Positions 2,077 to 35,705 of a stretch of DNA of 49,398 bases are shown piece by piece. How positions within the stretch are numbered: position 1 is the first letter of the stretch; each line of letters begins with the position of its first letter. The DNA lies in assembly GCA_031292145.1 (NCBI GenBank), contig JARLHR010000095.1, forward strand, positions 1 to 49,398, given 5' to 3'. Source of the DNA: Clostridium sp. (GTDB lineage Bacteria > Bacillota > Clostridia > Clostridiales > Clostridiaceae). Under the pieces are notes generated by a model. That model worked only from the letters and a program-made list of their open reading frames with translations, searched no databases and had not been told where the DNA came from. The translations under genes were made by a program, and so were the position numbers.

Positions 2077-2128
2077 CTCAATGTTGAGCAATTGTATGTG
2101 GAAATACATAACAATTGCTCAATTTTTA
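2077..2128 (+). promoter_or_regulatory. ANTAR-like hexaloop hairpin plus leader terminator before nifE
   Basis: The hairpin CTC-AATGTT-GAG at 2077-2088 has a six-base loop with A first and G fourth. It runs into a strong stem GAGCAATTGT/ACAATTGCTC (2086-2120) followed by AATTTTTA. A second small hairpin GCA-ATTGTA-TGT, also with an A1/G4 loop, can be drawn inside the 5' arm of the terminator. The two structures exclude each other, as in ANTAR-controlled attenuators. The T-tract is weak, so termination may be partial. Confidence 0.6.
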
Positions 2129-2341
2129 TAAATATGTATTGATAAATGAATTTATAATTTTCAATATTATTTTAAATAAGTTTCAAGTCGGAAAAAACAA
2201 CTGTAAAAGTTAATTGTTATTATTTAATTTTATTTGTTAACTGATTTAAGTTTTATTTATAAATTTATATTCAGCGAAAATTATAGTCTGGAATTTAAAT
2301 TTATAAATCTGATACATAAAGAAAGGTGGTGCAAAAGCCTT

Positions 2342-3706
2342 ATGGAAAAGAAAATAAGTAATTCGCTTCTTGAAGAAAGAGAAGACTTTGTATGTTTTAA
2401 GGAAGGCCATAGTAAAAAATCTATGAAATGTGATGGGGACAGTGTATCTGGTTCAGTTAGTCAAAGAGCTTGTGTTTATTGTGGCGCAAGAGTAGTGCTA
2501 AATCCAATAACTGATGCATACCACATAGTTCATGGTCCAATAGGATGTGCCAGCTATACCTGGGATATTAGAGGAAGTCTTTCAAGTGGCGAAAATTTAT
2601 ATAGAAATAGTTTTTCAACAGATTTGAGTGAACAAGATGTTATTTTTGGTGGAGAAAAGAAATTAACAGCAGCAATAGAGGGGATTATGGAAAATCATAA
2701 TCCAAAATTAATTTTTGTTTATGCTACTTGTATTGTTGGTGTTATTGGAGATGATATTAAGGCAGTCTGTAAAATGGCTGAGCAAAAATATAATGTGCCA
2801 GTTATACCTGTAATGGCACCAGGTTTTTCGGGAAATAAATCAAAAGGGTATAAATTAGCATGTAATGCTCTTATGAACCTTTTTTCAAGAAATATTATTC
2901 CTAAGGCAAAAGGTATAAATATGCTTGGTGATTTTAATTTAGCAGGAGAAATCTGGATTATTAAAGAATATTTAAAGAAAATTGGAGTTGACGTAATATC
3001 AACTATTACTGGAGATTCTAGTTATGACAAACTAATAAAAGCTAGCAGTGCAAGCTTTAATGTTGTTCAATGTGCAGGATCTATGACATATTTAGCTAAA
3101 AGAATGGAAGCTGAAATGGAAATTCCTTTTGTTAAGATAAGCTTTGTTGGATTAGAAGACAGTAAAAATTCTTTACTTAAAATTGCAAGCTTATTTAATG
3201 ATGAAGAAATTTTAGAAAAGGCTAAAGCGTTAGTAAAAGAAGAAGAGGAAAAAGTAATACCTATCCTAAATCAATATAAAGAAAATTTAAAGGGCAAAAA
3301 AGCAGCTATATATGTTGGTGGCGGTTTTAAGGCGATTTCTTTAATTAAGCAATTTAACGAACTTGGAATAGATACTGTAATGGTAGGAACACAAACTGGA
3401 AAGAAAGAGGATTATGAAGTTATAAATAGTTTAGTTAATGAAGGCACTGTTATTTTAGACGATGCCAATCCATATGAATTAGAAAAATTTATGTTAGAGC
3501 AAGATGTAGATATATTAGTAGGTGGGGTAAAAGAAAGACCACTTGCCTATAAATTAGGAGTTGCTTTTTGTGATCACAATCATGAAAGAAAACATCCTCT
3601 AGGAGGCTTTATAGGTGCCGTTAATTTTGCTAAGGAAATAAATCTTTCTATAAATAGTCCAGTGTGGAAGTATGTAAAGGAGAGTGAAGATAATGAAGAC
3701 AGCTAA
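2342..3706 (+). CDS. nifE: Nitrogenase cofactor scaffold protein NifE
   Basis: NifE is one half of the NifEN scaffold on which the NifB product is converted to FeMo-co. It is 454 residues from the ATG preceded by AAAGGTGGT. The reading frame stays open further upstream to 2234, but that part is AT-rich, has no ribosome-binding site and does not resemble NifE. The conserved core begins at SQRACVYCGARVVLNPITDAYHIVHGPIGCASYTWD, split here as ACVYCGAR and HGPIGCASYTWDIRG, followed by ATCIVGVIGDD. These carry the cluster-ligating cysteines. The C-terminal HNHERKHPLGGFIGAVNFA replaces the FeMo-co site of NifD. It overlaps nifN-B by 14 bases. Confidence 0.95.
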   Translation: MEKKISNSLLEEREDFVCFKEGHSKKSMKCDGDSVSGSVSQRACVYCGARVVLNPITDAYHIVHGPIGCASYTWDIRGSLSSGENLYRNSFSTDLSEQDVIFGGEKKLTAAIEGIMENHNPKLIFVYATCIVGVIGDDIKAVCKMAEQKYNVPVIPVMAPGFSGNKSKGYKLACNALMNLFSRNIIPKAKGINMLGDFNLAGEIWIIKEYLKKIGVDVISTITGDSSYDKLIKASSASFNVVQCAGSMTYLAKRMEAEMEIPFVKISFVGLEDSKNSLLKIASLFNDEEILEKAKALVKEEEEKVIPILNQYKENLKGKKAAIYVGGGFKAISLIKQFNELGIDTVMVGTQTGKKEDYEVINSLVNEGTVILDDANPYELEKFMLEQDVDILVGGVKERPLAYKLGVAFCDHNHERKHPLGGFIGAVNFAKEINLSINSPVWKYVKESEDNEDS

Positions 3707-6392
3707 AGAAAGTTATGTGAATCTAACTGTTAACCCATGTAAAATGTGCATGCCTATGGGCGTTGCTACTGCACTTTATGGAATTAAGAATTGTATGACG
3801 ATTTTACATGGATCACAAGGATGCAGTACATATATTAGAAGACATATGGCGACACATTATAATGAACCAGTAGATGTTGCTTCATCTTCACTAACTGAAG
3901 AAGGAACTGTTTATGGGGGAGAAAATAATTTGATTAAGGGATTAGAAAATTTAATAAAATTATATAATCCTGAAGTTATAGGGATTGGTACAACTTGTCT
4001 TGCTGAGACAATAGGAGAGGATGTAAAAAGACTTTCAAAAATATTCTACGAAAAACACCCAGAAAGCAGTGTGAAGTTAATTCCAGTACAATCTCCAGGT
4101 TACGGTGGAACACAGTATGGAGGGTATTTTACAGCTTTAAGAGCAGTAGTTGAAAATGTAGAAATGAATGCTGACAGTAATGGAAAAGTAAATGTTGTTA
4201 CAGGTCCGATAAGTAATGCTGATACTAGGCATCTGAAAGAGATATTAGATGATTTTAATATCGATTATATATTGCTTCCAGACATATCTGAAAATTTAGA
4301 TGGAGTTCATAGTAAGAAGTACAATAGATTACCAAGCAATGGTACTAGCATAGAAGAAATTAAATTTATGGCAGGTGCAAAAGCTACCATTGAATTCACT
4401 ACATTTATTAAAGAAGAATATTCTGTTGGAAGTTATTTAGAAGGAGCTTTTGGTGTTCAAAATTATAGAATTAATATACCAAGAGGACTTAGGGACACTG
4501 ATAAGTTTTTGAAAGTATTATCTGAAATTTCAGGAAATCCAATTCCAGAAAAGTATAAAAAGCAAAGAGGAAGATACTTAGATGCTATGATTGATTCGCA
4601 TAAATATAATGCAGAAGCTAGAATGGCAATATTCGGAGAACCTGATTTTGTATATTCTTGCGCAAGATTAGCCATAGAAAATGGATCAGTTCCAATGCTT
4701 ATAGCAACTGCAGATGTATGTGCGGGTCTTGAAAAAAGCTTAAGGGAAGAAGTGGATGAACTTTCAAATCGATTATTTGCGGAAAAATGTGCTATTTTAG
4801 ATGAAGCTGACTTTAAGATAATAGAAAATTATGTTTTAGAAGCTAATGTGAATGTAATGCTTGGAAATTCTGATGGTAGAAGAATAGAAGAAAAACATAA
4901 GGTACCATTAGTTAGAGCAGCTTTTCCTATTCATGATAGAGTTGGGGGACAAAGAATCTTATCTATTGGATATGAAGGGTCATTAAATTTAAGTGATCAA
5001 ATTGCAAATATAATGTTAGCAAAAACAGAATCTACTTTTAGAGAAGATTTATATAATGAATTTTATAAAGAAGATAAAAATGAAGAAATAGTTGTAAATA
5101 ATGAAAAAGCATTAATAAAGGAGGAGAAAAAAGTGGAATTAAGAACTATTAGTAAAGAGGTAATAGAAGAAAAAACAAAAACTCATCCTTGTTTTAGTTG
5201 TTCATCAGCTCATAAGTATGCAAGAATGCATCTTCCTATAGCACCAAAGTGTAATATAAGTTGTAATTATTGTTTGAGAAAATTTGATTGTGTTAATGAA
5301 AGTAGACCAGGAGTTACTACAGAGGTATTATCACCAGAAGAAGCATTTGCAAAATATAAACTTGTAAAATCTAAAATGGATAATTTAAAAGTTGTTGGTA
5401 TAGCAGGACCAGGTGATGCACTTGCTAACTTTGATAATGTAAAAGCAACTTTAAAGCTTATAAGAGAACATGATCCAGAGGTTACATTTTGTTTATCAAC
5501 AAATGGTTTAATGCTTCCGTTTTATGCGCAAGAGTTAATTGATTTAGGTGTAAGCCATATAACAATAACTATGAATGCTATAGATCCTAAAATAACTGCT
5601 AAGGTATATAAATTTGTAGATTATTTAGGGGTTACTTATACTGGTGAAGAGGGAGCGCAAATTCTTTTAAATAATCAATTATCAGGTCTTAAATATTTAA
5701 CTGATAGGGGAATCGTGGTTAAGGTTAATATTGTAATGCTGAAGGGAATTAATGATAACCATATTGAGGAAGTAGTTAAAAAGGTTAGAGATTTAGGCGC
5801 TACAATAACAAATATAATGCAAATGATACCTGTTAAAGGTAGCGTGTTTGAAAACATGCCACTTACAAGTAATAAAGAAATAATGGATTTAAGAAAAAAA
5901 TGTGGGGAACATTTAGAACAAATGTATCATTGCAAACAATGTAGAGCTGATGCTATTGGATTACTTGGAGATGATCAATCTCAAAAATTTAATAAGCCTA
6001 CAGATAAAGTAACAGAGGATAAGCCGCTAAAATTTGCAATTGCATCAAAGAGTGGTATTGGAGTTGATATGCATTTTGGACATGCTTCAGAATTCTATAT
6101 TTATGAATATAAAAATGGTGATGCAAGATATTTAGAAAAAAGAGATGTTGAGAAATATTGCAATGGAAAAGAAATATGTGAGGAAGAAGAAGACAAATTT
6201 GCTAAACTATCTAAAGTTGTTTCAGATTGTGAGTGAGTAATATGTCTTAGAATTGGAGATGAGCCTAGAAAGAAATTTAGTGGTATGGGCATAGAAGTGT
6301 TTATGAGTTGCGATACGATAGAAAGTGCAGTTGCAAAAGCAGCAGAAGCTATATTAAAAGGAACAGAAGTGAAAGAAATGTTAAGAGCTTAA
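3693..6392 (+). pseudogene. nifN-B: NifN-NifB fusion protein interrupted near its C-terminus by an in-frame TGA
   Basis: This is a clostridial fusion. The first ~450 residues are NifN, the second scaffold subunit (PCKMCMP, HGSQGCSTY, TTCLAETIGED). After a short acidic linker come NifB radical SAM residues (HPCFSCSSAHKYARMHLPI, with CNISCNYC binding the SAM [4Fe-4S] cluster) and a NifX-like cofactor-binding tail. NifB makes the 8Fe core of all nitrogenase cofactors. The start is ATG 3693, ten bases after AAAGGAG. The frame stops at TGA 6234-6236 but remains open in the same frame for 51 more codons to TAA 6390-6392. That extension, VICLRIGDEPRKKF and onward, aligns with the tail of the intact NifB at 34231, where the TGA position is GGA (Gly). 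The stop removes about 52 residues of the NifX-like domain only, so the product may still work. Causes could be a one-base mutation, readthrough or a sequencing error. Confidence 0.85.
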
Positions 6393-6451
6393 AATCTTTA
6401 ATAACTTTAATATTATTAAGGAAAATATAAATATAAAGAGGTGTAAGTAAA

Positions 6452-6760
6452 ATGATTAATATAAAATATCATATTTTTGTGTGTGCAAGCTGTAGAGTTA
6501 ATGGAATTCAAAAAGGAATGTGCTATTCTAAAGATTCTGTAAAGGTTGTTCAAAAATTTATGGAGGAAGTTGAAGATAGAGACTTAATAAACGAAGTAAT
6601 GGTGACTAATACAGGATGTTTAGGTGTATGTAATAAAGGTCCTATAGTAGTTGTATACCCTGAAGGAACTTGGTATGGAAATGTAAAAGTTGAAGATGTG
6701 GAAAAAATTGTAGAACAACATATCGAAGGCGGAAAAGTAGTAGAAGAGTTAGTTATCTAA
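6452..6760 (+). CDS. Thioredoxin-like [2Fe-2S] ferredoxin
   Basis: This is a 102-residue ferredoxin with cysteines at positions 11, 14, 24, 56 and 60 (CASC, MCYS, GCLGVC). Length and cysteine positions match the well-studied Clostridium pasteurianum [2Fe-2S] ferredoxin, which is nif-linked and interacts with the MoFe protein. Its exact role in electron transfer or assembly is not settled. It lies 59 bases after the end of the nifN-B frame with a GAGGTG ribosome-binding site, and two terminators follow, so it is probably the last gene of the nifE operon. Confidence 0.9.
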   Translation: MINIKYHIFVCASCRVNGIQKGMCYSKDSVKVVQKFMEEVEDRDLINEVMVTNTGCLGVCNKGPIVVVYPEGTWYGNVKVEDVEKIVEQHIEGGKVVEELVI

Positions 6761-6848
6761 GAAATAAATATATTTTACATATATAAGAAATCAGAGTGTT
6801 ACTTTTACTCGGTTTTTACATATATGTTTAAGTTTCAACTGTAAATTT

Positions 6849-6878
6849 GAGATGTGCTTTTGTACATCTCTTTTTTTT
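6849..6878 (+). terminator. Intrinsic terminator after the ferredoxin gene
   Basis: GAGATGT...ACATCTC stem (6849-6870) followed directly by eight T. It ends the nifE/nifN-B/ferredoxin unit. Confidence 0.85.
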
Positions 6879-6979
6879 ATGAAAATATCATTTGAAATTG
6901 ATTCAAATTTAGGTAAAGTAGTAGGCAAAAGATAAGATATTTGTAATTCAATTTTATATAATTTAGAGTATTGAAAGAG

Positions 6980-7016
6980 GAATTGAATGAATATAATATT
7001 ATTCAATTCTTTTTTG
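6980..7016 (+). terminator. Second terminator-like hairpin
   Basis: GAATTGAAT (6980-6988) pairs with ATTCAATTC (7001-7009), followed by six T. The 100 bases between this and the previous terminator hold no supported gene. It may be a remnant of an attenuated leader. Confidence 0.6.
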
Positions 7017-7108
7017 TGTTGCAAATACTAACAGTGATAAAATCTGCATAGTAAAATATAATGGTTTTACTTAAAATGTTGGATTTAAATAGCCACGAGA
7101 AGAAGTGC

Positions 7109-7137: not shown

Positions 7138-7147
7138 ATTATATAAT

Positions 7148-7186
7148 AAACAAAACCGAATAAAAACAAACAAAACCTGATTAAAA
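7148..7186 (+). promoter_or_regulatory. Direct-repeat operator candidate AAACAAAACC
   Basis: AAACAAAACCGAATAAAA (7148-7165) and AAACAAAACCTGATTAAAA (7168-7186) start exactly 20 bases apart, about two helical turns, just downstream of the -10 box. A similar arrangement follows the promoter at 8991. The position suggests a repressor site, possibly for the neighbouring regulator. This is inference. Confidence 0.5.
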
Positions 7187-7238: not shown

Positions 7239-7288
7239 CTCAATGTTGAGCACTATTTAAAAAGAAAAATTTCTTTTTAAATGGTGCT
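7239..7288 (+). promoter_or_regulatory. ANTAR-like hexaloop hairpin and terminator, copy 2
   Basis: CTC-AATGTT-GAG (7239-7250) runs into a long terminator stem, GCACTATTTAAAAAGAAA pairing with TTTCTTTTTAAATGGTGC, followed by TTTTTATTT. The GAG of the small hairpin also contributes to the terminator base (AGCAC/GTGCT), so the two compete. Confidence 0.65.
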
Positions 7289-7354
7289 TTTTATTTAAAA
7301 ATTAATAAGGATGTGATAAATAGTATTATCAATTTAAAATGGGAGGGATTATTA

Positions 7355-7483
7355 ATGAAAGAAAATAACAAAAGTTTATTAAAGAAATTATCGTGGTTAT
7401 TAATAAAAGCATTTTATCCTGATCAGTTTACAGATTTAGATCTGGAAAAAGATTTAGAGGTGTTCTATAATTTTTATTTATGA
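7355..7483 (+). CDS. 42-residue peptide resembling the C-terminal tail of FecB-type binding proteins
   Basis: A small frame with a good ribosome-binding site (GGGAGGG, seven bases upstream) and an ATG start. The sequence WLLIKAFYPDQFTDLDLEKD followed by LEVFYNFYL matches the extreme C-terminus of the binding proteins in this window (for example WLANLLYPDYVKLDINTEIK then NFYKTFYNYNL at 15844). Nothing resembling the rest of a binding protein lies upstream, only a leader attenuator. It is therefore either a remnant of a deleted binding-protein gene that still has a start, or a short expressed peptide. Lying between two attenuators, it could also act as a leader cistron. I favour a remnant. Confidence 0.55.
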   Translation: MKENNKSLLKKLSWLLIKAFYPDQFTDLDLEKDLEVFYNFYL

Positions 7484-7606
7484 GAATATTTAACAAAACA
7501 ATGTAAACTTACCTTACAAAACAAAATGATAACACATAAAAACTGATTATGAGAAATATATTATAAATTAAGAATTTCAAGAACTAAAATACATTTTATA
7601 ATATAA

Positions 7607-7660
7607 CTCAATGTTGAGTGCTAAAAAAGATGTACATTCTTTTTATTAGTGCTTTTTTGT
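7607..7660 (+). promoter_or_regulatory. ANTAR-like hexaloop hairpin and terminator, copy 3
   Basis: CTC-AATGTT-GAG at 7607-7618, then a stem based on AAAAAAGA/TTCTTTTT with GTGC/GTGC closing through G-C and G-U pairs, then TTTTTT. Upstream at about 7492-7530 are AACAAAACAATGT and ACAAAACAAAATG, which echo the operator repeats at 7148. This looks like a second duplicated leader in front of the regulator at 7894. Confidence 0.6.
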
Positions 7661-7662
7661 TT

Positions 7663-7893: not shown

Positions 7894-8874
7894 ATGCCAA
7901 ATGAAACATTAACGCCTCAAGAGGTTGCAGATTTGTTAAAGATATCTAAATGTACAGTATACGAATTGATAAAAAGAAAAGAACTAAATGGATATAAAGT
8001 AGGTAATAAACTTAGAATAGATGTTGGTGATGTAGAAGAATATAAGCTTAAAAATAGAAAGCTTCGTGAGGAAAAAGTAAATAAAAAAAATAAAAATGAT
8101 ACGATTTCTGAATCTAATTCACAGCAATATAATGCATATAATGAAATTGAAAATAATAATAGTAATTTAAACAATTTCATTATTTGTGGCCAAGATAACA
8201 TTTTAGATATTTTGTCTAGGTATTTGAGATACCATTCAAAAGGAAATAATGTATTGAGAGCTTATGAAGGCAGTTATAATGGATTATGCGCATTATATAG
8301 AAATCAAGTTCATGCAGTCGCGGCACATATTTGGGATAGAGAAACTGGAGAATATAATACCCCATTTGTTAAAGGGATGTTACCTGGTATATCAACAGTT
8401 ATTATAAACTTATGTTATAGAGTTCAAGGTTTTTATGTAGCTAAAAATAATCCAAAGAAAATTAAAGGCTGGGAAGATTTGAAGAGAGAAGATATTACTG
8501 TTATTAATAGGGAGCCAGGCAGTGGAAGCAGAGTTTTGTTAGACCAATATTTGAGATTAAATGGAATTAATACTAGTGATGTTAAAGGATATGAAAAAGA
8601 AACTTTCTCTCCAATGGCAATTGTAAGCGCTGTTGCAAGAGGAAGTGCTGATTTAGGAATAGGAACAGAGCGAACTTATTTACATTCTAAAGAAATTGAT
8701 TTTATTCCAATACAAAAAGAAAGGTATGACTTGGTTATACGAAAAGATACGGTTTCTAAATATCAAATCAAAGCTATTATTGAAATACTTTCATCTGAAA
8801 GCTTTAAAGATGAACTTATCGAGCTTAGAGGATATGATTTTTCGGATTCGGGTAAAATAGTGGGCGAAACTTAA
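7894..8874 (+). CDS. Helix-turn-helix regulator with a C-terminal PBP-like (COG1910/PF12727) ligand domain, paralog 1
   Basis: 326 residues. Residues 1-50 are an excisionase/MerR-like DNA-binding domain (LTPQEVADLLKISKCTVYEL, then IKRKELNGYKVGNKLRI). A low-complexity Asn/Lys linker follows. Residues ~90-326 are a cytosolic domain related to molybdate-type periplasmic binding proteins (NFIICGQDNILDILSRYL; NREPGSGSRVLLDQYL; ARGSADLGIG). In sulfate reducers a regulator of this architecture (TunR) responds to tungstate. Here a role in sensing molybdate, tungstate or vanadate oxyanions is likely but inferred. The ligand-loop sequence is GSGSR, against GCGVR and GSGTR in the paralogs at 20032 and 32005. 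It lies downstream of two attenuators and upstream of a metal-uptake locus. The ATG has GGAGG upstream. Confidence 0.8.
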   Translation: MPNETLTPQEVADLLKISKCTVYELIKRKELNGYKVGNKLRIDVGDVEEYKLKNRKLREEKVNKKNKNDTISESNSQQYNAYNEIENNNSNLNNFIICGQDNILDILSRYLRYHSKGNNVLRAYEGSYNGLCALYRNQVHAVAAHIWDRETGEYNTPFVKGMLPGISTVIINLCYRVQGFYVAKNNPKKIKGWEDLKREDITVINREPGSGSRVLLDQYLRLNGINTSDVKGYEKETFSPMAIVSAVARGSADLGIGTERTYLHSKEIDFIPIQKERYDLVIRKDTVSKYQIKAIIEILSSESFKDELIELRGYDFSDSGKIVGET

Positions 8875-9029: not shown

Positions 9030-9070
9030 AAACAAAAACTAATACAAACTAATAAAAACAAACAAAACAT
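9030..9070 (+). promoter_or_regulatory. AAACAAAAC direct repeats downstream of the promoter
   Basis: AAACAAAAACT at 9030-9040 and AAACAAAACAT at 9060-9070, 30 bases apart, with a degenerate ACAAACTAATAA between. Same motif and same place relative to the -10 as at 7148-7186. Candidate operator. Confidence 0.5.
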
Positions 9071-9090: not shown

Positions 9091-9147
9091 CTCATAGTCG
9101 AGCGCTAAATAAAAAAGAATTAATTCTTTTTATTGGTGCTTTTTTTA
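9091..9147 (+). promoter_or_regulatory. ANTAR-like hexaloop hairpin and terminator, copy 4
   Basis: CTC-ATAGTC-GAG (9091-9102). The loop sequence differs from the other copies but keeps A at position 1 and G at position 4. AGCGCTAA (from 9101) pairs with TTGGTGCT (9133-9140), with an A/T-rich inner stem, then seven T. Confidence 0.65.
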
Positions 9148-9375: not shown

Positions 9376-9382
9376 TAATAAG

Positions 9383-9442
9383 TTCAATGATGAGCACAAC
9401 ATTCAATGAGGGCAATTTCTTGATTGAATAGAGTGCTTTTTT
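9383..9442 (+). promoter_or_regulatory. ANTAR-like hexaloop hairpin and terminator, copy 5
   Basis: TTC-AATGAT-GAG (9383-9394; one U-G pair, loop A1/G4 kept) overlaps AGCAC, which pairs with GTGCT (9433-9437). The inner stem is ATTCAAT/ATTGAAT, followed by six T. It is the second attenuator in the leader of the gene at 9582. Confidence 0.65.
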
Positions 9443-9581: not shown

Positions 9582-10670
9582 ATGATGAAAAGATTACTTT
9601 TGGGAGTATTAATTTTGGTGTTAGGTGTTGGATTAATTACAAGTTGTAGAAAATCTCCTGATACTAAAACAATAGAAGCTGGTGTTGAAAATAAAGCAGA
9701 AAAAGTAACAATTACTGATTCGAGTGGATCTAATGTTGAGATTCCTGTGAATATTAATAATATTGCAGATGCTTGGGGGGCTCACAACGCTATTGTTGCA
9801 ATGTTGGGAGCAGGAGATAAAATATCAGCTACTACTCTCACTGAAAAGACTAAGCCATGGCTGTTTAAAGTTACGCCTGCAATGAGTAAAGCAGAACTTG
9901 CTTTTAATGTCGATGCAACAGACATAAATATGGAAGAACTTATTAAAAATAAACCAGATATTTTATTTATGTCTCAAGGAAATAAAAATATAAGTAAAAT
10001 AACAGATGTGGGTATTCCGGTTGTACAAGTTAGTTTTAAAGATTTCAATAGTTTAAAAGAATGTGTAAATTTAACAGGAAAAATACTTGGTGAAAAAGGC
10101 GAGGCAAGAGCTGAAAAATATAACTCTTATTTAGCTGAAAAATTAAAGATGGTAACTGATGAGACATCAAAAATTCCACAGGATAAAAAAATTAAAATAC
10201 TTCATTTAGCAGATTTTTCACCAATTAAAGTTGATGGGAAAGATACAATAATTGATGCGTGGATACAAGCAGCAGGTGGTATAAATGCTGCAGATTTTAG
10301 TGGTACTAAAGAGGTGACGATTGAGCAGATAATGAATTGGAATCCTGATGTTATTATTTTAAGTAGTACTGTAGGAAGTTCAGATAGGAAAAAAAGTGCT
10401 GTTGAAATGTTGAATGATGATACATGGAAAGAATTAAGTGCTGTTAGAAATGGAAAGGTATATATTAATCCTGATGGAGCATTTTCATGGGATAGATATA
10501 GTGCAGAAGAAGCTTTGCAGATTCAATGGGCAGCAAAAACTATGTATCCTAATAAATTTAAAGATATAGATATTTCTAATGAAACTAAATGGTTTTACAA
10601 AACATTTTTCAATTATGAGCTCTCAGATGATGAGGTTCAAAGAATTTTAAATGCAGAACCGCCACAATAA
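9582..10670 (+). CDS. FecB/BtuF-type ABC transporter substrate-binding lipoprotein
   Basis: 362 residues. The signal peptide ends in a lipobox (LITSC, Cys near residue 22), so the protein is anchored outside the membrane. The two-lobed PF01497-type domain starts at VTITDSSGSNVEIPVNINNI. The C-terminus has the TYKTFFNYELSDDEV-like tail typical of clostridial members (here FYKTFFNYELSDDEV). The ligand is unknown. The family binds iron-siderophores, haem or cobalamin, and some clostridial members are grouped with nitrogenase genes. It lies behind a promoter and two attenuators. No permease follows directly; the permease is four genes on, after a radical SAM gene and a binding-protein remnant. 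Confidence 0.85.
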   Translation: MMKRLLLGVLILVLGVGLITSCRKSPDTKTIEAGVENKAEKVTITDSSGSNVEIPVNINNIADAWGAHNAIVAMLGAGDKISATTLTEKTKPWLFKVTPAMSKAELAFNVDATDINMEELIKNKPDILFMSQGNKNISKITDVGIPVVQVSFKDFNSLKECVNLTGKILGEKGEARAEKYNSYLAEKLKMVTDETSKIPQDKKIKILHLADFSPIKVDGKDTIIDAWIQAAGGINAADFSGTKEVTIEQIMNWNPDVIILSSTVGSSDRKKSAVEMLNDDTWKELSAVRNGKVYINPDGAFSWDRYSAEEALQIQWAAKTMYPNKFKDIDISNETKWFYKTFFNYELSDDEVQRILNAEPPQ

Positions 10671-12308: not shown

Positions 12309-12598
12309 TGTTATAATAGCTAATACTAAGGATGCTTATGATTATAATGGATAAATCTAATGGCAGTCAATGGCAGGATGTTAATGCTGTGAAAAATAAT
12401 AGACCAAAAGGAACTTATCTTTGGCCAGTAAAGAGTGCTGAAGGTGCACTGCAGCCTTTGTGGTTGGGCAAAATATTACATCCAGATTTGTTTGAAGATT
12501 TAGATATGAACCAAAAAGTTAAAGAGTTTTATAAAACATATTATAATTATGACCTAAGTGAAAAGGAACTAGATGATATTATGAATCCTAAGTCATAA
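12309..12598 (+). pseudogene. Frameshifted C-terminal remnant of a FecB-type binding protein
   Basis: Reading from 12310, one frame gives VIIANTKDAYDYNG then a stop. A +1 shift near 12350 continues as SQWQDVNAVKNNRPKGTYLW and so on to FYKTYYNYDLSEKELDDIMN. Together this aligns with the last third of the binding proteins at 9582 and 14661. A perfect ribosome-binding site (AAGGAGGG) stands before an ATG followed at once by stop codons. The 88-residue frame from 12332 has no ribosome-binding site at a usable distance. This is debris of a fourth binding protein, lost by deletion and frameshift. Confidence 0.75.
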
Positions 12599-12609: not shown

Positions 12610-12662
12610 CTCAATGGGGAGTGCTATTAAAAAAGAAAGTTTCTTTTTAATAGTGCTTTTTT
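12610..12662 (+). promoter_or_regulatory. ANTAR-like hexaloop hairpin and terminator, copy 6
   Basis: CTC-AATGGG-GAG (12610-12621), loop A1/G4. The terminator is AGTGCTATTAAAAAAGAAA against TTTCTTTTTAATAGTGCT, then TTTTTT. It separates the first binding-protein/radical SAM group from the permease group, so downstream transport genes are probably expressed only on readthrough. Confidence 0.65.
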
Positions 12663-12702
12663 ATTAAATAAAAATAGTTTGTGTTAGGGAGTGACAATAT
12701 TA

Positions 12703-13782
12703 ATGGTTAATGAATTAAGTACAAATAAAAGTGAAAAAAGACAAATTATTATGGATATATTCAGAAATGTAAAAGGTAAGAGTTCAATTTTGTTAGTTTT
12801 ATTAGCGGTTCTTATATCAGCTATTCTCTTTTCTTTTACAATTGGCAGATATTCAGTTACATTAAATCAGTTCTTTGAAATCATTAGATGTAAAATTTTT
12901 GGAGGTACTGTAAATTGGCCTGAATCTGTTTCAACTGTATTGTTTAAGATAAGAATCCCCAGGATTTTCATAGCAGTTATAATAGGTGCTGCTTTAGCTA
13001 TTGCAGGAGTAGCGTATCAAGGTTTGTTTAAAAATCCTATGGTATCGCCAGATATATTGGGAGCATCATCTGGTGCAGGATATGGTGCCGCAATTGCAAT
13101 TTTATTATCTTTTGGTTCATCTGGAATTCAAATATCAGCATTTCTTTTTGGATTAGCTGCAGTATTAATTACAATTATAATAAGCAAATGTGTAGCTAGA
13201 TCAAATAATAACATTTTGGCATTGGTATTAACTGGAATGGTAGTTAATACATTGTTTTCATCATTTACATCCATTACTAAATATTTAGCCTACACTGATG
13301 ATAAGCTTCCAGCAATAACATTTTGGTTAATGGGTGGTCTTTCGGCAGTAAGTTTGAAGGATTTGTTAATAATTTTATTTCCTTTTATTTTGGGTATAAC
13401 TCCATTAATTTTGATAAGATGGAAATTAAATGTTCTTTCCTTTGGAGAAGAAGAAGCTCAAGGACTTGGGATAGATACTGGCAAAATAAGAGGAATAACA
13501 ATATTGTGTTCAACTCTTCTTACTGCATCAGCTGTGTCGGTTGGAGGGATGATTGGTTGGATAGGACTTATAATACCTCACATAGCAAGACTTATAGTAG
13601 GTCCTAATTATAAAGTATTACTGCCAGCTTCTGCACTTATTGGAGGGGCATTTTTATTAATAGTTGACGATGTTGCGCGTTGTCTGTTTAGTATAGAAAT
13701 TCCTATAGGCATATTAACTTCAATAATAGGAGCGCCATTTTTCCTATATTTATTATTTAAAGAGAGGAGAGGAAAAGAATGA
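12703..13782 (+). CDS. FecCD-family ABC transporter permease, paralog 1
   Basis: 359-residue polytopic membrane protein of the BtuC/FecCD type. Motifs include RIPRIFIAVIIGAALAIAGV, YQGLFKNPMVSPDILGASSG and GMIGWIGLIIPHIARLIVG. It forms the membrane pore of an importer for chelated metal. The ATG at 12703 is preferred; the upstream GTG at 12691 lies against the GGGAG ribosome-binding site. The stop overlaps the ATPase start by four bases, showing coupling. A close paralog is at 16988. Confidence 0.9.
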   Translation: MVNELSTNKSEKRQIIMDIFRNVKGKSSILLVLLAVLISAILFSFTIGRYSVTLNQFFEIIRCKIFGGTVNWPESVSTVLFKIRIPRIFIAVIIGAALAIAGVAYQGLFKNPMVSPDILGASSGAGYGAAIAILLSFGSSGIQISAFLFGLAAVLITIIISKCVARSNNNILALVLTGMVVNTLFSSFTSITKYLAYTDDKLPAITFWLMGGLSAVSLKDLLIILFPFILGITPLILIRWKLNVLSFGEEEAQGLGIDTGKIRGITILCSTLLTASAVSVGGMIGWIGLIIPHIARLIVGPNYKVLLPASALIGGAFLLIVDDVARCLFSIEIPIGILTSIIGAPFFLYLLFKERRGKE

Positions 13783-21116: not shown

Positions 21117-21144
21117 CCAAATCATATTCTAGACTTATACGATA

Positions 21145-21345
21145 ATCTACCGAAATCAAATACATTTGTGTTACGCAGGATTATGAAAATTTCGCTGAAA
21201 GCACTAAATGGGAGCTTGCATCAACATTAGCTTGCTCCCACTTTCAGTGTGACAAGCTAATGTGGAATAAGCTACCATTAAGTGCTTTTAGCATCGAAAT
21301 TTTCAAATGCCTGCTACCCACAAATGTATTTGATTTCTAGTGTAG
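21145..21345. repeat. Long inverted-repeat element, family B copy 1
   Basis: Terminal stem GAAATCAAATACATTTGTG pairs perfectly over 19 bp with CACAAATGTATTTGATTTC. The core contains TCGCTGAAAGCACTAA, AGCTTGCTCCCACTTTCAG and GACAAGCTAATGTGGAA. The copy at 45566-45770 keeps the core but has a different, still fully paired terminal stem. Related to family A. Confidence 0.75.
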
Positions 21346-22547: not shown

Positions 22548-23183
22548 TTACTTGGAATTACGTTTTGGAAAAATAGAGACACTGATGTTGCCATCTTTAC
22601 GAGTAGCCATATGAAAGTTATAGCCCATATTTGATAAATCTCTATCAAACCATTTTGGGACATGATCACAAACAACTTCTAAACTTTCAAATACCTCATC
22701 TTTTAAAAAAGGTATTAATATTTGTTTAGATGAAATAGTTCCGTCTTCCTGTAAAAGCTTTTTTAAATCAATGGTATAATTTCCGTACATATCTATTTTT
22801 TCTGGAAAAAACTTATTTGCGGCTTGGGAAGCTAAAAGAAGTTCTTCTCTATGAAGTTTTTCTTCAGAAATTAATACGGAATTTAAAAAAGTACTAGGCG
22901 TTCCGTTAAGTTCATAAACGTTGAAAAAATAGGCTTCTAAAATACTGAAAAGCTGCCCAGATATCTCTTTTGCAACAAAGATTTTGCAATCATCAAGTTG
23001 TTCTACTAATTTAGATAAGCTTTTTCTTAAACTAATAATAGTACTATTGTTAGAAATGGAATATTCTAAGCTCTTTGATTCTAACCATTCTTCATTTACC
23101 CTTTTGTATAATTTTACTGTTCCGTTATCTAACCAGGAACCTGTCTCGCCATCATTGTTTAATAAAACTGCAATTGAATTCAT
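22548..23183 (-). CDS. AnfO-family nitrogenase accessory protein
   Basis: 211 residues. The opening IAVLLNNDGETGSWLDNGTV, the segment LDDCKIFVAKEISGQLFSIL and FNVYELNGTPSTFLNSVL match what I know of the AnfO family, named from the iron-only nitrogenase of Azotobacter and Rhodobacter. Its biochemical role is poorly known; it is thought to support alternative nitrogenase. It is divergent from vnfH across an 850-base regulatory region, consistent with a role for the V enzyme here. GGAG precedes the ATG. Identification is from memory of the family. Confidence 0.65.
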   Translation of the reverse strand: MNSIAVLLNNDGETGSWLDNGTVKLYKRVNEEWLESKSLEYSISNNSTIISLRKSLSKLVEQLDDCKIFVAKEISGQLFSILEAYFFNVYELNGTPSTFLNSVLISEEKLHREELLLASQAANKFFPEKIDMYGNYTIDLKKLLQEDGTISSKQILIPFLKDEVFESLEVVCDHVPKWFDRDLSNMGYNFHMATRKDGNISVSIFPKRNSK

Positions 23184-23708: not shown

Positions 23709-23783
23709 AAATATAGAAGTTTCAGTGTATACAAAGATGTATAGGTAACTAGCTTAGAGGCAGTTAACTATACATCTTTTTTT
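23709..23783 (+). promoter_or_regulatory. Two-hairpin ANTAR-type antiterminator and terminator in the vnfH leader
   Basis: First hairpin AAAT-ATAGAA-GTTT (23709-23722), a five-base linker, second hairpin TATAC-AAAGAT-GTATA (23728-23743). Both loops are six bases with A1 and G4, the ANTAR target signature. The second overlaps the 5' arm of a terminator, AAGATGTATAG (23734-23744) with CTATACATCTT (23768-23778), followed by seven T. The two folds are mutually exclusive. Binding of an ANTAR protein to the hairpins would allow readthrough into vnfH. The regulator is not in the window. Confidence 0.75.
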
Positions 23784-24015
23784 CTTAATTAAATCTAAAA
23801 ATTTTCCTTATGCAAAGGTGTATATTTAAATTTCAATTAATTTACTTTCAAGAATATATAAGCATATATGAATTAAATATAGATTCAACGGTGCATATTC
23901 TTAATTGATTTTACATCATTAAATAATAAGATTTATATTATCGAATAATGAGTGATTCTTAGTCTTTAATATTGCTTCTTATATAATGATTAAAATATAT
24001 AAAAAATATTTTTAA

Positions 24016-24861
<846 letters not shown>

Positions 24862-31859: not shown

Positions 31860-32004
31860 GCTTGTAACTATATATTATAATATTTTAGGAAGCTAGATGG
31901 AAGAGTGGCAAGATGGGGATATTTAAAACTTTGGCATTGAAATAGCAAATATTTATTGCTATAGTAAAACTATCTAAAATACTAAAAAAGGAAGGATGGG
32001 TTTT

Positions 32005-32979
32005 ATGGATAAGAATACCCCACTTACACCTCAGGAAGTTGCCGATATGTTAAAGATATCCAAGAGCACTGTGTATGAATTAATTAAAAAGAATTCAATT
32101 AATTCATATAAGGTGGGTAAGAAATTACGTATAGATCTAAAAGATGTAGAAAAATATAAAAATAAGACTAAGACAGTTATAAATATAGAACAAGATGATA
32201 ACGATAATGAAAAAAAAACTATTCAGTTAATTGGAAGTTTAAATAATTCATATAATACTAATTATAGTTTGCCGGCACAATTTATAATCTGTGGCCAGGA
32301 TATAATTTTAGATATATTATCTCGGTATTTAGAGATGCATACAAGTGGAATACATAATTTGAGAAACTATCAAGGCAGCTATAATAGTTTATACTCCATG
32401 TATAAAGGGAAAGCGACTATAGCAACAGCTCATATGTGGGATAGAAAAAGCGGTTTATATAATATTCCGTATGTTCAAAAAATGCTTCCAGGTACACCTT
32501 GCATTTTAATAAATTTAGCACATATAAATGTAGGTTATTATGTAGCTAAAGGAAATCCAAAAAATATTTTGTCATGGGAAGACTTAAGACGTGATGATAT
32601 TGTTATGGTTAATAGAGAAAAAGGAAGCGGAACACGGATATTATTGGATGAACGCATGCAAGAAATGAAAATTTCTCATAGCAATATTAAGGGATATGAA
32701 AGAGAATGTCTTGCACATATTGCAGTGGCTAGTGCTATTGCTCGTGGAGAGGCGGATTTTGGACTTGGCTCTGAAAAGGCATCATATCAAGTTAAAGATA
32801 TTGATTTTATTCCGTTACAAAAGGAACAATATGATTTAATTATAAAGAAAGAAGATTTTAACTTGCCAAGTGTTCAAGCAGTTATAGAGATACTTGGATC
32901 AGAGGAATTTAAAATGGAAGTGTCAAGTTTAGGCGGATATGATGTTTCACAATTGGGTAAAGTTGTAGGTGAAACTTAA
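32005..32979 (+). CDS. Helix-turn-helix regulator with PBP-like ligand domain, paralog 3
   Basis: 324 residues from ATG 32005 (AAGGAAGG nine bases upstream). Excisionase-like N-terminus (LTPQEVADMLKISKSTVYEL). The C-terminal molybdate-binding-like domain (QFIICGQDIILDILSRYLEM) has ligand loop NREKGSGTRILLDER and second loop ARGEADFGLG. The GSGTR form is closest to what I would expect of an oxyanion-binding member. It follows the vnf operon and precedes nifI, so it may be the molybdate sensor of this segment; that is inferred. Confidence 0.8.
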   Translation: MDKNTPLTPQEVADMLKISKSTVYELIKKNSINSYKVGKKLRIDLKDVEKYKNKTKTVINIEQDDNDNEKKTIQLIGSLNNSYNTNYSLPAQFIICGQDIILDILSRYLEMHTSGIHNLRNYQGSYNSLYSMYKGKATIATAHMWDRKSGLYNIPYVQKMLPGTPCILINLAHINVGYYVAKGNPKNILSWEDLRRDDIVMVNREKGSGTRILLDERMQEMKISHSNIKGYERECLAHIAVASAIARGEADFGLGSEKASYQVKDIDFIPLQKEQYDLIIKKEDFNLPSVQAVIEILGSEEFKMEVSSLGGYDVSQLGKVVGET

Positions 32980-33009
32980 AATAAATATTTATAAATAATT
33001 AATTATTAC

Positions 33010-33050
33010 AAAGAGGTCTAGTTCGGTAATGAATTAGACCTCTTTGTGTT
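33010..33050 (+). terminator. Terminator after regulator 3
   Basis: AAAGAGGTCTA pairs with TAGACCTCTTT around a ~14-base loop. Confidence 0.8.
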
Positions 33051-33148
33051 AATTATATATTACTTTTTGTTACCAAAGTAATCTCAATTATAAAAAAACT
33101 ATGGGGTATTGCTTTTGGCATAAATAATATGATAGGAGTGGTTAAATT

Positions 33149-33475
33149 ATGTACATGATTCGATCAATTATCAGACCAGAAAAGGTGAATGGGGTATTAG
33201 CGGCGCTATTAGAAGCAGGTTTTCCTCAAATTACTAAGATGGATGTGTTTGGTAGAGGTAAACAAAAGGGGATAAGAGTTGGAAGTGTAGAATATGATGA
33301 ACTTCCTAAAGAAATGCTTATGATTACTGTGAGAGATGAAGATAAGGATGAAGTAATAAAAATAGTAATGGACAATTCTAGAACTGGAGACAAAGGAACC
33401 TTTGGAGATGGAAAGATATTTGTATCTGAGGTTGAAGAAGTATACACAGTTAGTAGCGGAAAGGAAGGCTTATAA
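33149..33475 (+). CDS. nifI1: Nitrogen-fixation PII protein NifI1
   Basis: 108-residue PII-family protein of the nif-specific branch (MYMIRSIIRPEKVNGVLAAL, KMDVFGRGKQKGIRVG, GDGKIFVSEVEEVYTV). NifI1 and NifI2 form a complex that blocks the MoFe protein when ammonium is plentiful and is relieved by 2-oxoglutarate and ATP, as shown in methanogens. The uridylylated Tyr context of GlnB is absent. Usually these genes lie between nifH and nifD; here they follow the vnf operon. RBS AGGAGTGG. Confidence 0.9.
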   Translation: MYMIRSIIRPEKVNGVLAALLEAGFPQITKMDVFGRGKQKGIRVGSVEYDELPKEMLMITVRDEDKDEVIKIVMDNSRTGDKGTFGDGKIFVSEVEEVYTVSSGKEGL

Positions 33476-33497
33476 AAGATAAGGAGGAAAGGTAAAG

Positions 33498-33881
33498 ATG
33501 AAAGAGGTAATATGTATTATCCGTTTAAACAAAGTTAGTCAAACTAAAGAAGCTCTATATGAAGCAGGATTTCCAGCTATTACGTTTATAAAAGTATTTG
33601 GCAGGGGAAAAAAATCTTTAGATCAAGCAATGGCGCAAACTTTTATCGATGCTGGGAAAAAAGTGCCAGCTTCATATGATGAAAGTATATCAGAAAAGGG
33701 TAGATTGATTCCTAAGAGATTAATTACGTTAATAGTAAATGATGATCAAGTTAAAAAAGTAGTTGATACAGTAATGACAATAAATTCTACTGGATCACCT
33801 GGAGATGGGAAAATATTTGTATTACCTATTAAAGAAAGTTATAGAGTAAGAGATGGTAAAGCAGGAGAAGAAGTTTTATAG
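33498..33881 (+). CDS. nifI2: Nitrogen-fixation PII protein NifI2
   Basis: 127-residue partner of NifI1 with the longer T-loop typical of NifI2 (DQAMAQTFIDAGKKVPASYD before GRLIPKRLITLIV). It begins 22 bases after nifI1 with AAGGAGG upstream. The T-loop is the part that contacts nitrogenase in this family. Whether this pair acts on the Mo enzyme, the V enzyme or both cannot be told from the sequence. Confidence 0.9.
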   Translation: MKEVICIIRLNKVSQTKEALYEAGFPAITFIKVFGRGKKSLDQAMAQTFIDAGKKVPASYDESISEKGRLIPKRLITLIVNDDQVKKVVDTVMTINSTGSPGDGKIFVLPIKESYRVRDGKAGEEVL

Positions 33882-33927
33882 TAACGTATGATTGTTAGAA
33901 ATGGTAAAAGACGTGTGTGAAATAAGT

Positions 33928-34092
33928 TTAAGGCACAATCAAAAAAATAATAGACCAGTATGCTTGCATATTTCGCGTCATACTGCGTCAGCAAATTCAG
34001 CTAATAGGCCCGCTATGAGCAGAATTTACTTCCTTGTCTGACACGAAATATGCGTCACATCTTTGGTCTATTATTTTTTTTCATGTGCCTAA
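33928..34092. repeat. Inverted-repeat element, family C copy 1
   Basis: Ends AAGGCACA... and ...CATGTGCCT. Inside are AATAATAGACCA/TGGTCTATTATT and TATTTCGCGTCA/TGACACGAAATA. GC-rich core unlike neighbours. Shorter relatives with the same ends are at 36794-36851 and 39610-39665. Confidence 0.65.
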
Positions 34093-34155
34093 ACCAATAA
34101 TTTAATTAACCAAGATATGTATAGTGTATGGATGTAAGTCCTATAGATTTCAAGT

Positions 34156-34190
34156 GATACTTATCTATAGGGTTTACATTTTAAAGTATT
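34156..34190 (+). terminator. Leader hairpin before nifB
   Basis: Around 34137-34174, CCTATAGAT pairs with ATCTATAGG, followed by GTTTACATTTT, a poor T-tract. A possible weak attenuator; GGATGTAAGTCC just upstream can form a small hairpin but its loop does not fit the A1/G4 rule. Confidence 0.4.
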
Positions 34191-34230
34191 GAAAAGTACA
34201 AAACTAATGTTTTAAAGGAGGCGAAGTGTT

Positions 34231-35484
34231 ATGAATGAAATTGAAATTAAGAATTATTCAAGTGCTAATGAGGAAAAAACTAAAAAACATCCATGTTTTA
34301 GCTGCGGTTCTGCACATAAATATGCAAGAATGCATTTACCAATAGCACCAAAATGTAATATTAGCTGCAATTATTGTTTAAGAAAATATGATTGTGTAAA
34401 TGAAAGCAGACCAGGTGTAACAACAGAATTATTATCACCAAGGGAAGCATTTTTAAAATATAAATATGTTAAGGCTAAAATGCCCAATTTAGCTGTAGTT
34501 GGAATAGCAGGACCTGGAGATGCTTTAGCAAATTTCGATGATGTAAAAGAGACACTTAAGCTTATTAAGGAATATGATTCAGAAGTTACTTTTTGTTTAT
34601 CAACAAATGGATTGATGCTCCCATTTTATTGCGAAGAAATTATTGGGCTTGGTGTTAGCCATGTTACAATAACTATTAATGGAGTTGATCCTAAGATAAC
34701 TTCTAAGATTTATAAATACATCGATTATTTAGGAACTACTTATACTGAAATAGAAGGAGCAGAAATACTTTTAAATAACCAATTATCAGGATTAAAATAT
34801 TTATCAGATAGAGGAATTGTATGTAAAGTTAATATAGTAATGCTTAAGGGAATTAATGATAATCATATTGAAGACATAGTTAAAAAAGTTAAAACACTTG
34901 GGGCATCAATAACTAATATAATGCAAATGATACCTGTTAAGGGGAGTGCATTTGAGCAAATGCCTTTAGTTAATATTAAAGAGATAATGGAGCTACGAAA
35001 AAAGTGTGAAGTACATATTCCTCAAATGTATCATTGCAAACAATGCAGAGCAGATGCCATTGGAACATTAGATAATGATCAATCTTTAGAATTTGCTAAC
35101 AATACTAACCAAGAAAAAAAAATAAGGTTTGCAATAGCATCGAAAACAGGTAAGGTTGTAGATTTACATTTTGGACATGCTACGGAATTCTATATTTATG
35201 ATTATATAAATGACAATACTGTATTTATAGAAAAAAGAAGTACTCAAAAATATTGCAATGGTAAGGATGAGGTTGAAGAAATAGATAAATTTGAAGAAAC
35301 TATGAAGATATTAGCTGATTGTAATGGAATAATATCTTTAAGAATAGGAAACAGTCCTACAAATAAATTTAAAAGTAAAGGCATAGAAGTATTTATGACT
35401 TGTGATGAAGTAGAAAGTGCAGTAGAAAAAGCTGCAGAATCAATTTTAAAAGGAATGGAAGTAGAAAATATTTTAAAGGTTTAA
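34231..35484 (+). CDS. nifB: Nitrogenase cofactor biosynthesis radical SAM protein NifB
   Basis: 417 residues: an intact stand-alone NifB with a C-terminal NifX-like domain. HPCFSCGSAHKYARMHLPI then CNISCNYCLRKYDC provide the radical SAM cluster and K-cluster-type cysteines; YHCKQCRADA gives further ligands. It closely follows the NifB half of the fusion at 3693 and keeps the full tail (IISLRIGNSPTNKF onward) that the fusion has lost to a stop codon. It can therefore supply NifB-co for both nitrogenases. RBS AAAGGAGGCG. Confidence 0.95.
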   Translation: MNEIEIKNYSSANEEKTKKHPCFSCGSAHKYARMHLPIAPKCNISCNYCLRKYDCVNESRPGVTTELLSPREAFLKYKYVKAKMPNLAVVGIAGPGDALANFDDVKETLKLIKEYDSEVTFCLSTNGLMLPFYCEEIIGLGVSHVTITINGVDPKITSKIYKYIDYLGTTYTEIEGAEILLNNQLSGLKYLSDRGIVCKVNIVMLKGINDNHIEDIVKKVKTLGASITNIMQMIPVKGSAFEQMPLVNIKEIMELRKKCEVHIPQMYHCKQCRADAIGTLDNDQSLEFANNTNQEKKIRFAIASKTGKVVDLHFGHATEFYIYDYINDNTVFIEKRSTQKYCNGKDEVEEIDKFEETMKILADCNGIISLRIGNSPTNKFKSKGIEVFMTCDEVESAVEKAAESILKGMEVENILKV

Positions 35485-35601
35485 TAAATAAATTTTAATT
35501 AGATAATTACTAAATTAATTAAGAAATAATAAAATATTATACAAAATATTTCTATATTGTGATAACATTATATTAATTAAAATTGTAACAAAATCTCAAA
35601 T

Positions 35602-35652
35602 GGCAATGAGGCCTAAAAATGGACTAAGTATTAGTTGATTTTTAGGTTATTT
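35602..35652 (+). promoter_or_regulatory. ANTAR-like hexaloop hairpin and terminator, nifV leader copy 7
   Basis: GGC-AATGAG-GCC (35602-35613), loop A1/G4, overlaps CCTAAAAA (35612-35619), which pairs with TTTTTAGG (35639-35646) ahead of TTATTTTTA. Confidence 0.6.
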
Positions 35653-35657
35653 TTATT

Positions 35658-35705
35658 GGCAAAGAAGCCTATTTAATATAAACAATATATTAAACAGGTT
35701 TTTTA
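35658..35705 (+). promoter_or_regulatory. ANTAR-like hexaloop hairpin and terminator, nifV leader copy 8
   Basis: GGC-AAAGAA-GCC (35658-35669), loop A1/G4, overlaps CCTATTTAATATA, which pairs with ATATATTAAACAGG (35685-35698) followed by six T. It is a tandem variant of copy 7 (TGGCAATGAGGCCTA against TGGCAAAGAAGCCTA). Confidence 0.62.

Follow-up and report, generated by a model that had tools for sequence, protein, structure and literature searches.

Single-hexaloop hairpins overlapping terminators are probable ANTAR antitermination targets at nitrogen-fixation leaders of Clostridium

The DNA analysed here (hereafter the window) is a 49.4-kb contig (49,398 nucleotides, nt), one of 282 contigs of a clostridial assembly totalling 6.3 Mb, and carries nif genes together with a vanadium nitrogenase (vnf) set. 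It contains nine short terminator-overlapping hairpins whose six-base loop has A at position 1 and G at position 4 (A1/G4). These elements are likely to be leader switches of the ANTAR antitermination type, which use a single hexaloop, are read by the glnA-linked protein NitR and gate nitrogen genes. They share one anatomy of overlapping hairpin and terminator folds, their stems covary, they are enriched in ANTAR-bearing genomes, and no upstream partner hairpin (P1) is detectable.

The dual-hexaloop targets of ANTAR proteins (EutV/eutP, NasR/nasF and AmiR/amiE; Ramesh et al. 2012, PMC3369931) have in common with the present elements a short stem, an A1/G4 six-base loop and a downstream hairpin (P2) shared with the terminator 5′ arm, and they too serve nitrogen genes in multi-unit regulons. 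In contrast to that type, no G-C-containing P1 was found at 91 sites in the genus, and in several leaders whole units are repeated instead. Nitrogenase units were already named for Pelobacter in the same paper, and the motif searches published there and in PMC8164766 both used the dual form in the parts considered here. NitR of C. saccharobutylicum antiterminates the glutamine synthetase/glutamate synthase (GS/GOGAT) genes under nitrogen limitation (PMC6316151, citing Stutz et al. 2007). The present system likewise links an ANTAR protein with GS control, and goes beyond that case in that the element also precedes nif and vnf genes, genes for transporters (ammonium transporters among them) and homocitrate synthase, and amine genes. 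Control of GS/GOGAT genes by NitR antitermination has been reported before; among the literature matches listed, no title dealt with clostridial nif or vnf genes controlled by ANTAR proteins through single hexaloops, and the supplementary tables of PMC3369931 may include some clostridial nif leaders.

Hairpin-terminator units in the window

A sequence-only reading of the window had listed eight hairpins, and all eight were found with the positions, stems and loops it gave (AATGTT three times; ATAGTC, AATGAT, AATGGG, AATGAG and AAAGAA once each), with A at loop position 1 and G at position 4 in 8/8. Its statement that each copy abuts or overlaps a terminator was borne out by an RNAfold-based scan, which placed a terminator hairpin and U-tract (−10.5 to −21.8 kcal/mol) at 8/8 copies, the hairpin 3′ arm overlapping the terminator 5′ arm by 3–8 nt. 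The list was incomplete in that it missed a copy in the vnfH leader (23728–23743); across all nine copies the overlap is 3–11 nt. Folded alone, the window hairpins reach −0.5 to −3.2 kcal/mol, and with hairpins so weak beside terminators so strong, termination should be the default.

All nine units lie on the + strand. In the nifE leader, the hairpin CTC AATGTT GAG (2077–2088) runs into a terminator fold of −20.4 kcal/mol (2083–2123), followed by nifE (2234–3706, +, Pfam Oxidored_nitro), a name that we take from the position before the nifN-B fusion; the nifE leaders of loci L013 and L028 carry loop AATGAT. The same hairpin sequence recurs at 7239–7250 with an intrinsic terminator of −21.8 kcal/mol (7248–7289), before a 42-residue remnant of a substrate-binding protein; this copy need not be functional, as what it precedes is a decayed tail. 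The leader of the HTH_17 + PBP_like regulator at 7894–8874 (+, assigned by domain matches) holds ACTC AATGTT GAGT (7606–7619) and a terminator fold of −10.5 kcal/mol (7616–7654). Two units precede the substrate-binding protein at 9582–10670 (+, Pfam Peripla_BP_2), whose substrate, judging by genomic context, would be a metal or oxyanion: CTC ATAGTC GAG (9091–9102; terminator fold 9100–9141, −14.0 kcal/mol) and GTTC AATGAT GAGC (9382–9395; 9392–9438, −15.8 kcal/mol). A FecCD-type permease (12691–13782, +) follows CTC AATGGG GAG (12610–12621; 12619–12658, −13.6 kcal/mol), and the orthologous permease leaders in genomes G031 and G049 carry loop AAAGGT. The vnfH leader holds TATAC AAAGAT GTATA (23728–23743; 23733–23779, −20.7 kcal/mol); vnfH itself (24037–24861, +) is followed by vnfD, which scores above the TIGR01860 cut-off. 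Two units stand before homocitrate synthase, GGC AATGAG GCC (35602–35613; 35611–35647, −16.0 kcal/mol) and GGC AAAGAA GCC (35658–35669; 35662–35704, −13.2 kcal/mol). This gene is split in two in the window, into a post-HMGL part (35878–36795, +, presumably nifV-omega-like) and a catalytic part (36863–37627).

Several further observations concern the same leaders. Open reading frames at 7355–7483 (42 residues) and 12332–12598 (88 residues) resemble, by eye, the C-terminal tails of nearby substrate-binding proteins and are apparently gene remnants. Direct repeats rich in AACAAAAC lie between predicted promoter and hairpin at 7149–7176 and 9031–9068, and are possibly operators of the HTH_17 + PBP_like regulators or unstructured leader. 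The vnfH leader contains an additional A1/G4 hexaloop (AAAGGT, 23807–23826), at which the scan gives no overlapping terminator. A window match at 39203 without a G-C pair was removed by the filter.

Enrichment at nif and vnf terminators

The scan considered strong intergenic terminators and all hairpins, with 3 stem pairs as the minimum, that reach the terminator foot with their 3′ arm. The nif and vnf regions of 13 genomes span 400 kb and hold 213 terminators; in them, 53 of 60 hexaloops with at least two G-C pairs were A1/G4, as against 0/5 for loops of 5, 7 and 8 in the same regions. The ANTAR-less control, 380 kb of random stretches from four genus genomes with 224 terminators, gave 1/4 hexaloops; other stretches of the own genome (347 kb) gave 1/6, and that one is the glnA leader. 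When no G-C pair was demanded, the counts were 62/158, 5/114 and 7/68, respectively. For another set, made up of nif and glnA loci, the count was 39/49. Counted per terminator, A1/G4 was present at 53/213 in the nif and vnf regions vs 1/224 in the ANTAR-less control (Fisher 3e-17) and, in the window alone with at least one G-C pair, at 9/25 vs 1/224 (Fisher 2e-9); these p-values overstate independence, the sites being partly orthologous. Within the window, A1/G4 hairpins occur at 9/17 terminators on the + strand and 0/8 on the − strand. The constancy of the loop, which had been put down to selection, is thus beyond chance, and in the 380 kb of control the terminators of ANTAR-less genomes are not matched at an equal rate.

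Among the 60 hexaloops, whose loop letters were not preset by the selection, A2/G4 is found in 57, A1/G4 in 53 and A1/A2 in 52; the constancy of A2 therefore equals or exceeds that of A1. A pattern of fixed CTC/GAG stem plus terminator with a free loop has 4 matches in the 6.3-Mb assembly, all within the window and all A1/G4. In 68 genus genomes it matches at 7 places, of which 6 are A1/G4 (the four in the window, one in G031 and one in G049); the remaining match, in G033 and with loop CACTAC, was counted as a miss.

Stem covariation

Covariation was assessed in a gap-free alignment of 55 distinct sites from outside the window, drawn from 68 distinct sites by leaving out the 9 window sites and 4 others that were doubtful by eye. 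Stem positions pair in 92.7% of cells vs 65.7% in shuffled alignments, and both sides have changed in 64 cells vs 18.4 in shuffles; when the partner is slid by 1–3 columns, pairing falls to 30–44%. The inner three pairs were demanded at selection, which makes their pairing percentage circular. The fourth, outermost pair was free of selection, and it pairs in 39/55 sites, with both sides changed in 19. The closing pair is C-G in 90 of the 91 annotated sites described below, and loop position 2 is A in 90/91; one of the four omitted sites (L012) is the site without the C-G closing pair, so that the invariance of this pair in the alignment is partly the authors' choice.

The sequence-only reading had proposed a covariance model as a check. 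A hairpin-only model (R1) built from the 55 sites recovered the vnfH-leader hairpin without having seen window sequences, and at an expect value (E) of up to 3 it found 5/9 copies and 6 other places in the window. It also matched 25 places in the ANTAR-less control at E up to 10. As a detector the hairpin alone is therefore not specific, and the overlapping terminator is required: hairpin plus terminator discriminated where the hairpin-only model did not.

Search for an upstream partner hairpin

The search for P1 covered 91 annotated A1/G4 sites: 26 at nifH, 25 at glnA, 12 at AnfO-like genes, 8 at homocitrate synthase, 5 at the permease, 3 at nifE, 3 at substrate-binding proteins, 2 at vnfH, 2 at nifI1 and 5 at others. 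The gene downstream of each site was taken from the best BLAST match at E 1e-4 in the next 1.5 kb; a few of these assignments, with an identity to glnA or nifI2 that does not exceed 30%, are doubtful. Seven of 98 A1/G4 sites had no annotated downstream match and were excluded. The dual-hexaloop definition places a second A1/G4 hairpin upstream across a linker of about 5–12 nt (2–25 in actinobacteria). At linkers of up to 20 nt, an A1/G4 hexaloop P1 with at least one G-C pair was found at 0/91 sites (0.6 expected), and without the G-C demand at 4/91 vs 7.3 expected in shuffles. Any upstream hexaloop with G4 occurred at 18/91 (17.9 expected), and with C-G closure at 5/91 (3.1 expected). Upstream hairpins with loops of 5–8 were near expectation, the largest excesses with a G-C pair being 19 vs 11.0 for loop 8 and 16 vs 11.8 for loop 5.

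The same search recovers P1 where it exists. In an EutP-linked clostridial leader (L121), P1 TATCAC AAAGGT GTGATG was found 10 nt before P2 AAGC AACGGG GCTT, the other 19 A1/G4 sites of that set having no G-C-containing P1, and P1 was found at nifH in 3/3 genomes of the sister genus g24 (linker 8–10). The suggestion of a reduced, one-hairpin class is thus supported at the 91 sites, with working positive controls.

The glnA leaders bear on the same question. Promoters were called at 23/25 glnA sites, and the −10 box ends at most 17 nt before the hairpin in 16/23, exactly 15 nt before it in nine, and 21–36 nt before it in the other 7/23. If the start of transcription lies about 7 nt beyond the −10 box, a spacing of 15 nt would leave too little RNA for a 12-nt P1 hairpin. 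Accordingly spaced promoters, 16/23 of those called, appear to leave little or no room for P1; they are consensus matches rather than mapped starts, and some calls (5–8 nt) are too close for true promoters. To exclude P1 for lack of room at all glnA leaders would be too strong.

Repetition of the whole hairpin-terminator unit is seen in several leaders of nifH, homocitrate synthase, glnA and transporter genes. In some nifH leaders (for example L009 6964–7009 and L018 4001–4048), the terminator of the first unit bears a C-G-closed A1/G4 hexaloop close to its apex. Such an apex hexaloop, considered as a hidden partner hairpin, occurs at 11/26 nifH sites, 0/65 other sites, 0/224 ANTAR-less terminators and 3/187 other own-genome terminators, and cannot explain the class.

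It is unlikely that these are classical dual-hairpin sites whose P1 was overlooked because it diverges in loop size, loop bases or a bulged stem. Such a divergence would reconcile them with the requirement of EutV for P1 in vivo (PMC3369931) and with the P1 at nifH in g24, and long leaders, such as those of metal genes, could accommodate a P1. Candidates are AT-only P1-like hairpins, with a linker of 10 in the G031 and G049 permease leader and of 5 in the vnfH leader of the window, and an upstream hairpin with loop GCTGTA, seen by eye, in the eut-linked locus L119. Against this stand the counts below expectation for A1/G4 hairpins and at or near it for G4 hexaloops and loops of 5–8, and the cramped glnA promoters (16/23 of those called). 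Most simply, the Clostridium lineage would either have lost P1 or never have acquired it, with no change in the reader protein.

NitR as the candidate reader

A search for the cognate ANTAR gene had been suggested, and the whole assembly has a single ANTAR match (73.6 bits), 29 nt behind glnA. We call it nitR, taking the location directly behind glnA to be the NitR hallmark. The protein has ANTAR domain PF03861 at 71.1 bits (cut-off 27.3), and its Response_reg match of 23.0 bits is below the cut-off of 30.2. Among the genus loci fetched, 37/39 ANTAR genes are glnA-linked; all 37 have lost the acidic pair of the receiver, and the acceptor Asp is replaced by G in 28 and by N in 4, while 5 retain it. 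The two eut-linked ANTAR proteins keep the acidic pair and the acceptor Asp. In other genera, both acidic residues are gone in 9/10 glnA-linked ANTAR proteins; G164 keeps one, and the acceptor Asp is retained in G164 and G177. A strict pairing of single hairpins with pseudo-receivers is ruled out by g24, which combines glnA-linked pseudo-receivers with a dual-hairpin nifH leader.

An AlphaFold model of NitR (predicted local distance difference test 87, predicted template modelling score 0.65) is closest to RNA-bound EutV (6ww6; template modelling score 0.76), and Foldseek also matched it to the AmiR structure 1qo0. AmiR of Pseudomonas aeruginosa likewise has a receiver-like domain, which acts through contact with AmiC; unlike AmiR, NitR has glnA as its neighbour rather than an AmiC-like sensor. 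Conservation of the pseudo-receiver is high among close NitR orthologues, which suggests a binding surface, and since it lacks the phosphorylation residues the signal is probably protein or metabolite contact. The EutV RNA contacts K143, K147, M172 and R177 (numbering of PMC8934654) are conserved in NitR, whereas N173, R168 and R175 are replaced by D, Q and G, respectively. NitR is the most likely reader of the hairpins.

A reader other than NitR, or a protein-free element such as a metal- or glutamine-sensing riboswitch, is quite improbable. Several copies do precede transporter genes, and three HTH_17 + PBP_like regulators adjoin copies. On the other side, an Rfam scan of the window found no family at or above the gathering threshold; conservation falls on the hexaloop, which is the known signature of ANTAR targets; the genes that follow the same element, namely those for ammonium transporters and amine metabolism together with glnA and nifH, have nitrogen in common and not metal; and the element is rare at terminators of ANTAR-less genomes.

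Proposed regulon and distribution

In the own genome the element also stands in the leader of the glnA-nitR locus, by which NitR would control its own gene. A second glnA attenuator, of the type ATTGAGC AAAGGC GTTCAAT, can be seen by eye in the own genome at about 4600–4660 of L049 on the − strand, where the scan listed the first only; it is also present in relatives.

With 150 of 1441 candidates in the own genome scored, R1 gave an incomplete list of 31 matches; the 30 taken as loci have a terminator overlap by scan in 8, by reading in 2 and none in 20. The ten loci with terminators are nifH (two), an AnfO-like gene, homocitrate synthase (two), glnA and four others. Two of these four, a putrescine aminotransferase and a tyramine oxidase subunit B, exceed their NCBIfam cut-offs; the third is a PotD-like binding protein that stays below its cut-off, and the fourth is AspA/AstE-like. 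In relatives, the element precedes ammonium transporters (L128, L136, L223 and L225) and a TupA-like binding protein (below cut-off). A putative ANTAR regulon over nif, vnf, regulators, metal uptake and homocitrate synthesis, as the sequence-only reading had envisaged, is supported by the controls, the covariation, the ANTAR gene by glnA and the orthologous leaders; its scope was drawn too narrowly, with glnA, ammonium transporters and amine genes to be added.

A nifN-B match of 740 bits or more occurs in 16 genus genomes; an ANTAR gene is present in 15/16, the exception being a genome of 70% completeness; the co-occurrence is weak evidence, because 38/52 of the remaining genus genomes also have one. 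In the family, 46/146 genomes have a nifH match, and 30 nifH loci were scanned, one per genome. An A1/G4 hexaloop with terminator lies within 700 nt upstream in 9/30, that of G134 being weak, and in 0/9 ANTAR-less nif genomes of other genera was the element found before the nifH scanned. The three genomes of g24 have classical dual hairpins at nifH and a glnA-linked NitR; the glnA leader of G144 is single-hairpin, and the scan reported none in those of the other two.

Proposed mechanism and its alternatives

By default, the nascent leader RNA would fold the strong terminator and transcription would stop. Under nitrogen shortage, NitR would capture the weak A1/G4 hexaloop hairpin as it emerges from RNA polymerase. 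The hairpin 3′ arm is also the terminator 5′ arm, so that holding the hairpin would prevent termination and the gene would be read. One hexaloop per terminator would be enough, with no recruitment hairpin P1; in several leaders the whole unit is repeated instead. The proposed regulon comprises glnA-nitR, nif, vnf, Mo/V-type oxyanion uptake, homocitrate synthase and amine catabolism and, in relatives, ammonium transporters. Binding by NitR, the direction of control, the sufficiency of one hexaloop and nitrogen as the signal are what we infer.

More tentatively, this may be a native class of ANTAR antitermination in which a phosphorylation-independent NitR reads nitrogen status through contact of its strongly conserved pseudo-receiver with glutamine synthetase or glutamine, with metal-specific DNA regulators picking the promoter and NitR gating the single-hexaloop leader: an AND gate for Mo and V nitrogenases.

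Studies of EutV offer support for, and tension with, a single-hexaloop target. In the minimal motif proposed for EutV, an ANTAR dimer engages one hexaloop at once, and the authors allow single-hexaloop sites where transcription timing is not limiting (PMC8934654). The present case departs from that proposal in that single hexaloops overlap terminators, where its authors consider both hairpins necessary.

A number of observations weigh against the proposed switch. EutV needs P1 in vivo (PMC3369931), so by analogy one-hairpin sites might work poorly. Folded alone, 6/9 window hairpins form a four-base loop. R1 at E up to 3 misses four of the nine copies, and it gives 12 matches of 15 bits or more in the control vs 4 in the window. 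The built-in terminator scan, which permits no bulges and only loops of 3–8, lists 1/9 window terminators (7248–7289); in our reading, the other eight escape through bulges or larger loops. Orthologous sites are not independent, with 48 distinct cores among the 91, and the ANTAR-less controls are random stretches rather than nif leaders. Finally, 12 ANTAR-bearing nif genomes of other genera lack the element at the nifH scanned.

That NitR binds without antitermination, through its own titration or stabilisation of the mRNA 5′ end, is very unlikely. It would fit the hairpin lying near the predicted 5′ end in many glnA leaders, and EutX RNA sequesters EutV (PMC8934654); the sites, however, were by definition hairpins that overlap a terminator fold with its U-tract, and all 91 precede a same-strand gene. 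Chance can be dismissed: A/T-rich terminators often begin with a small hairpin, and A1/G4 hexaloops with at least two G-C pairs occur elsewhere too (window totals 14 on the + and 6 on the − strand), but the loop-size, loop-letter, strand and ANTAR-less controls and the covariation reject it.

If the antitermination switch by NitR is real, a set of ANTAR targets has escaped notice because two hairpins were demanded, and clostridial diazotrophs gain a testable nitrogen master switch over Mo and V nitrogenases, metal supply and cofactor synthesis. What would set it apart from the known ANTAR kind is that the target is reduced to one hairpin, that the reader has a pseudo-receiver and that control extends to V nitrogenase and metal supply. 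The 12–16-nt hairpin with its terminator would make a compact regulatory part, and the glnA-linked pseudo-receiver raises the question of how the signal is sensed.

Gene content and other features of the window

The window starts within nifD and continues with nifK, nifE, nifN-B, regulators, transport genes, the V nitrogenase set (vnfH, vnfD, vnfG, vnfK, vnfE and vnfN), nifI1/nifI2, nifB and homocitrate synthase; gene names inside the nitrogenase family are partly our assignment by position. Three HTH_17 + PBP_like regulators are present (7894, 20023 and 31996), and the transport genes are of substrate-binding-protein, FecCD and ABC types. The nif operon is broken over two contigs, with the end of L009 (G000:C101) and window 1–312 overlapping inside nifD; by eye, the overlapping ends differ at a few residues, pointing to mixed strains or an assembly break. 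AnfO-family genes occur at both the V (window 22548–23183) and the Mo (L009 5092–5697) nitrogenase loci, and at 12 sites those of the nif-side kind are preceded by a single-hexaloop leader. Intergenic elements of a long, palindrome-like form lie at two places, 1690–1930 and 21130–21340. A repeat of about 165 nt resembling a miniature inverted-repeat transposable element is present at window 33921–34095 and at L049 4438–4604, the latter copy (92%) just before glnA and downstream of the glnA attenuators; other own-genome stretches searched hold five more copies at 89–91% and weaker ones.

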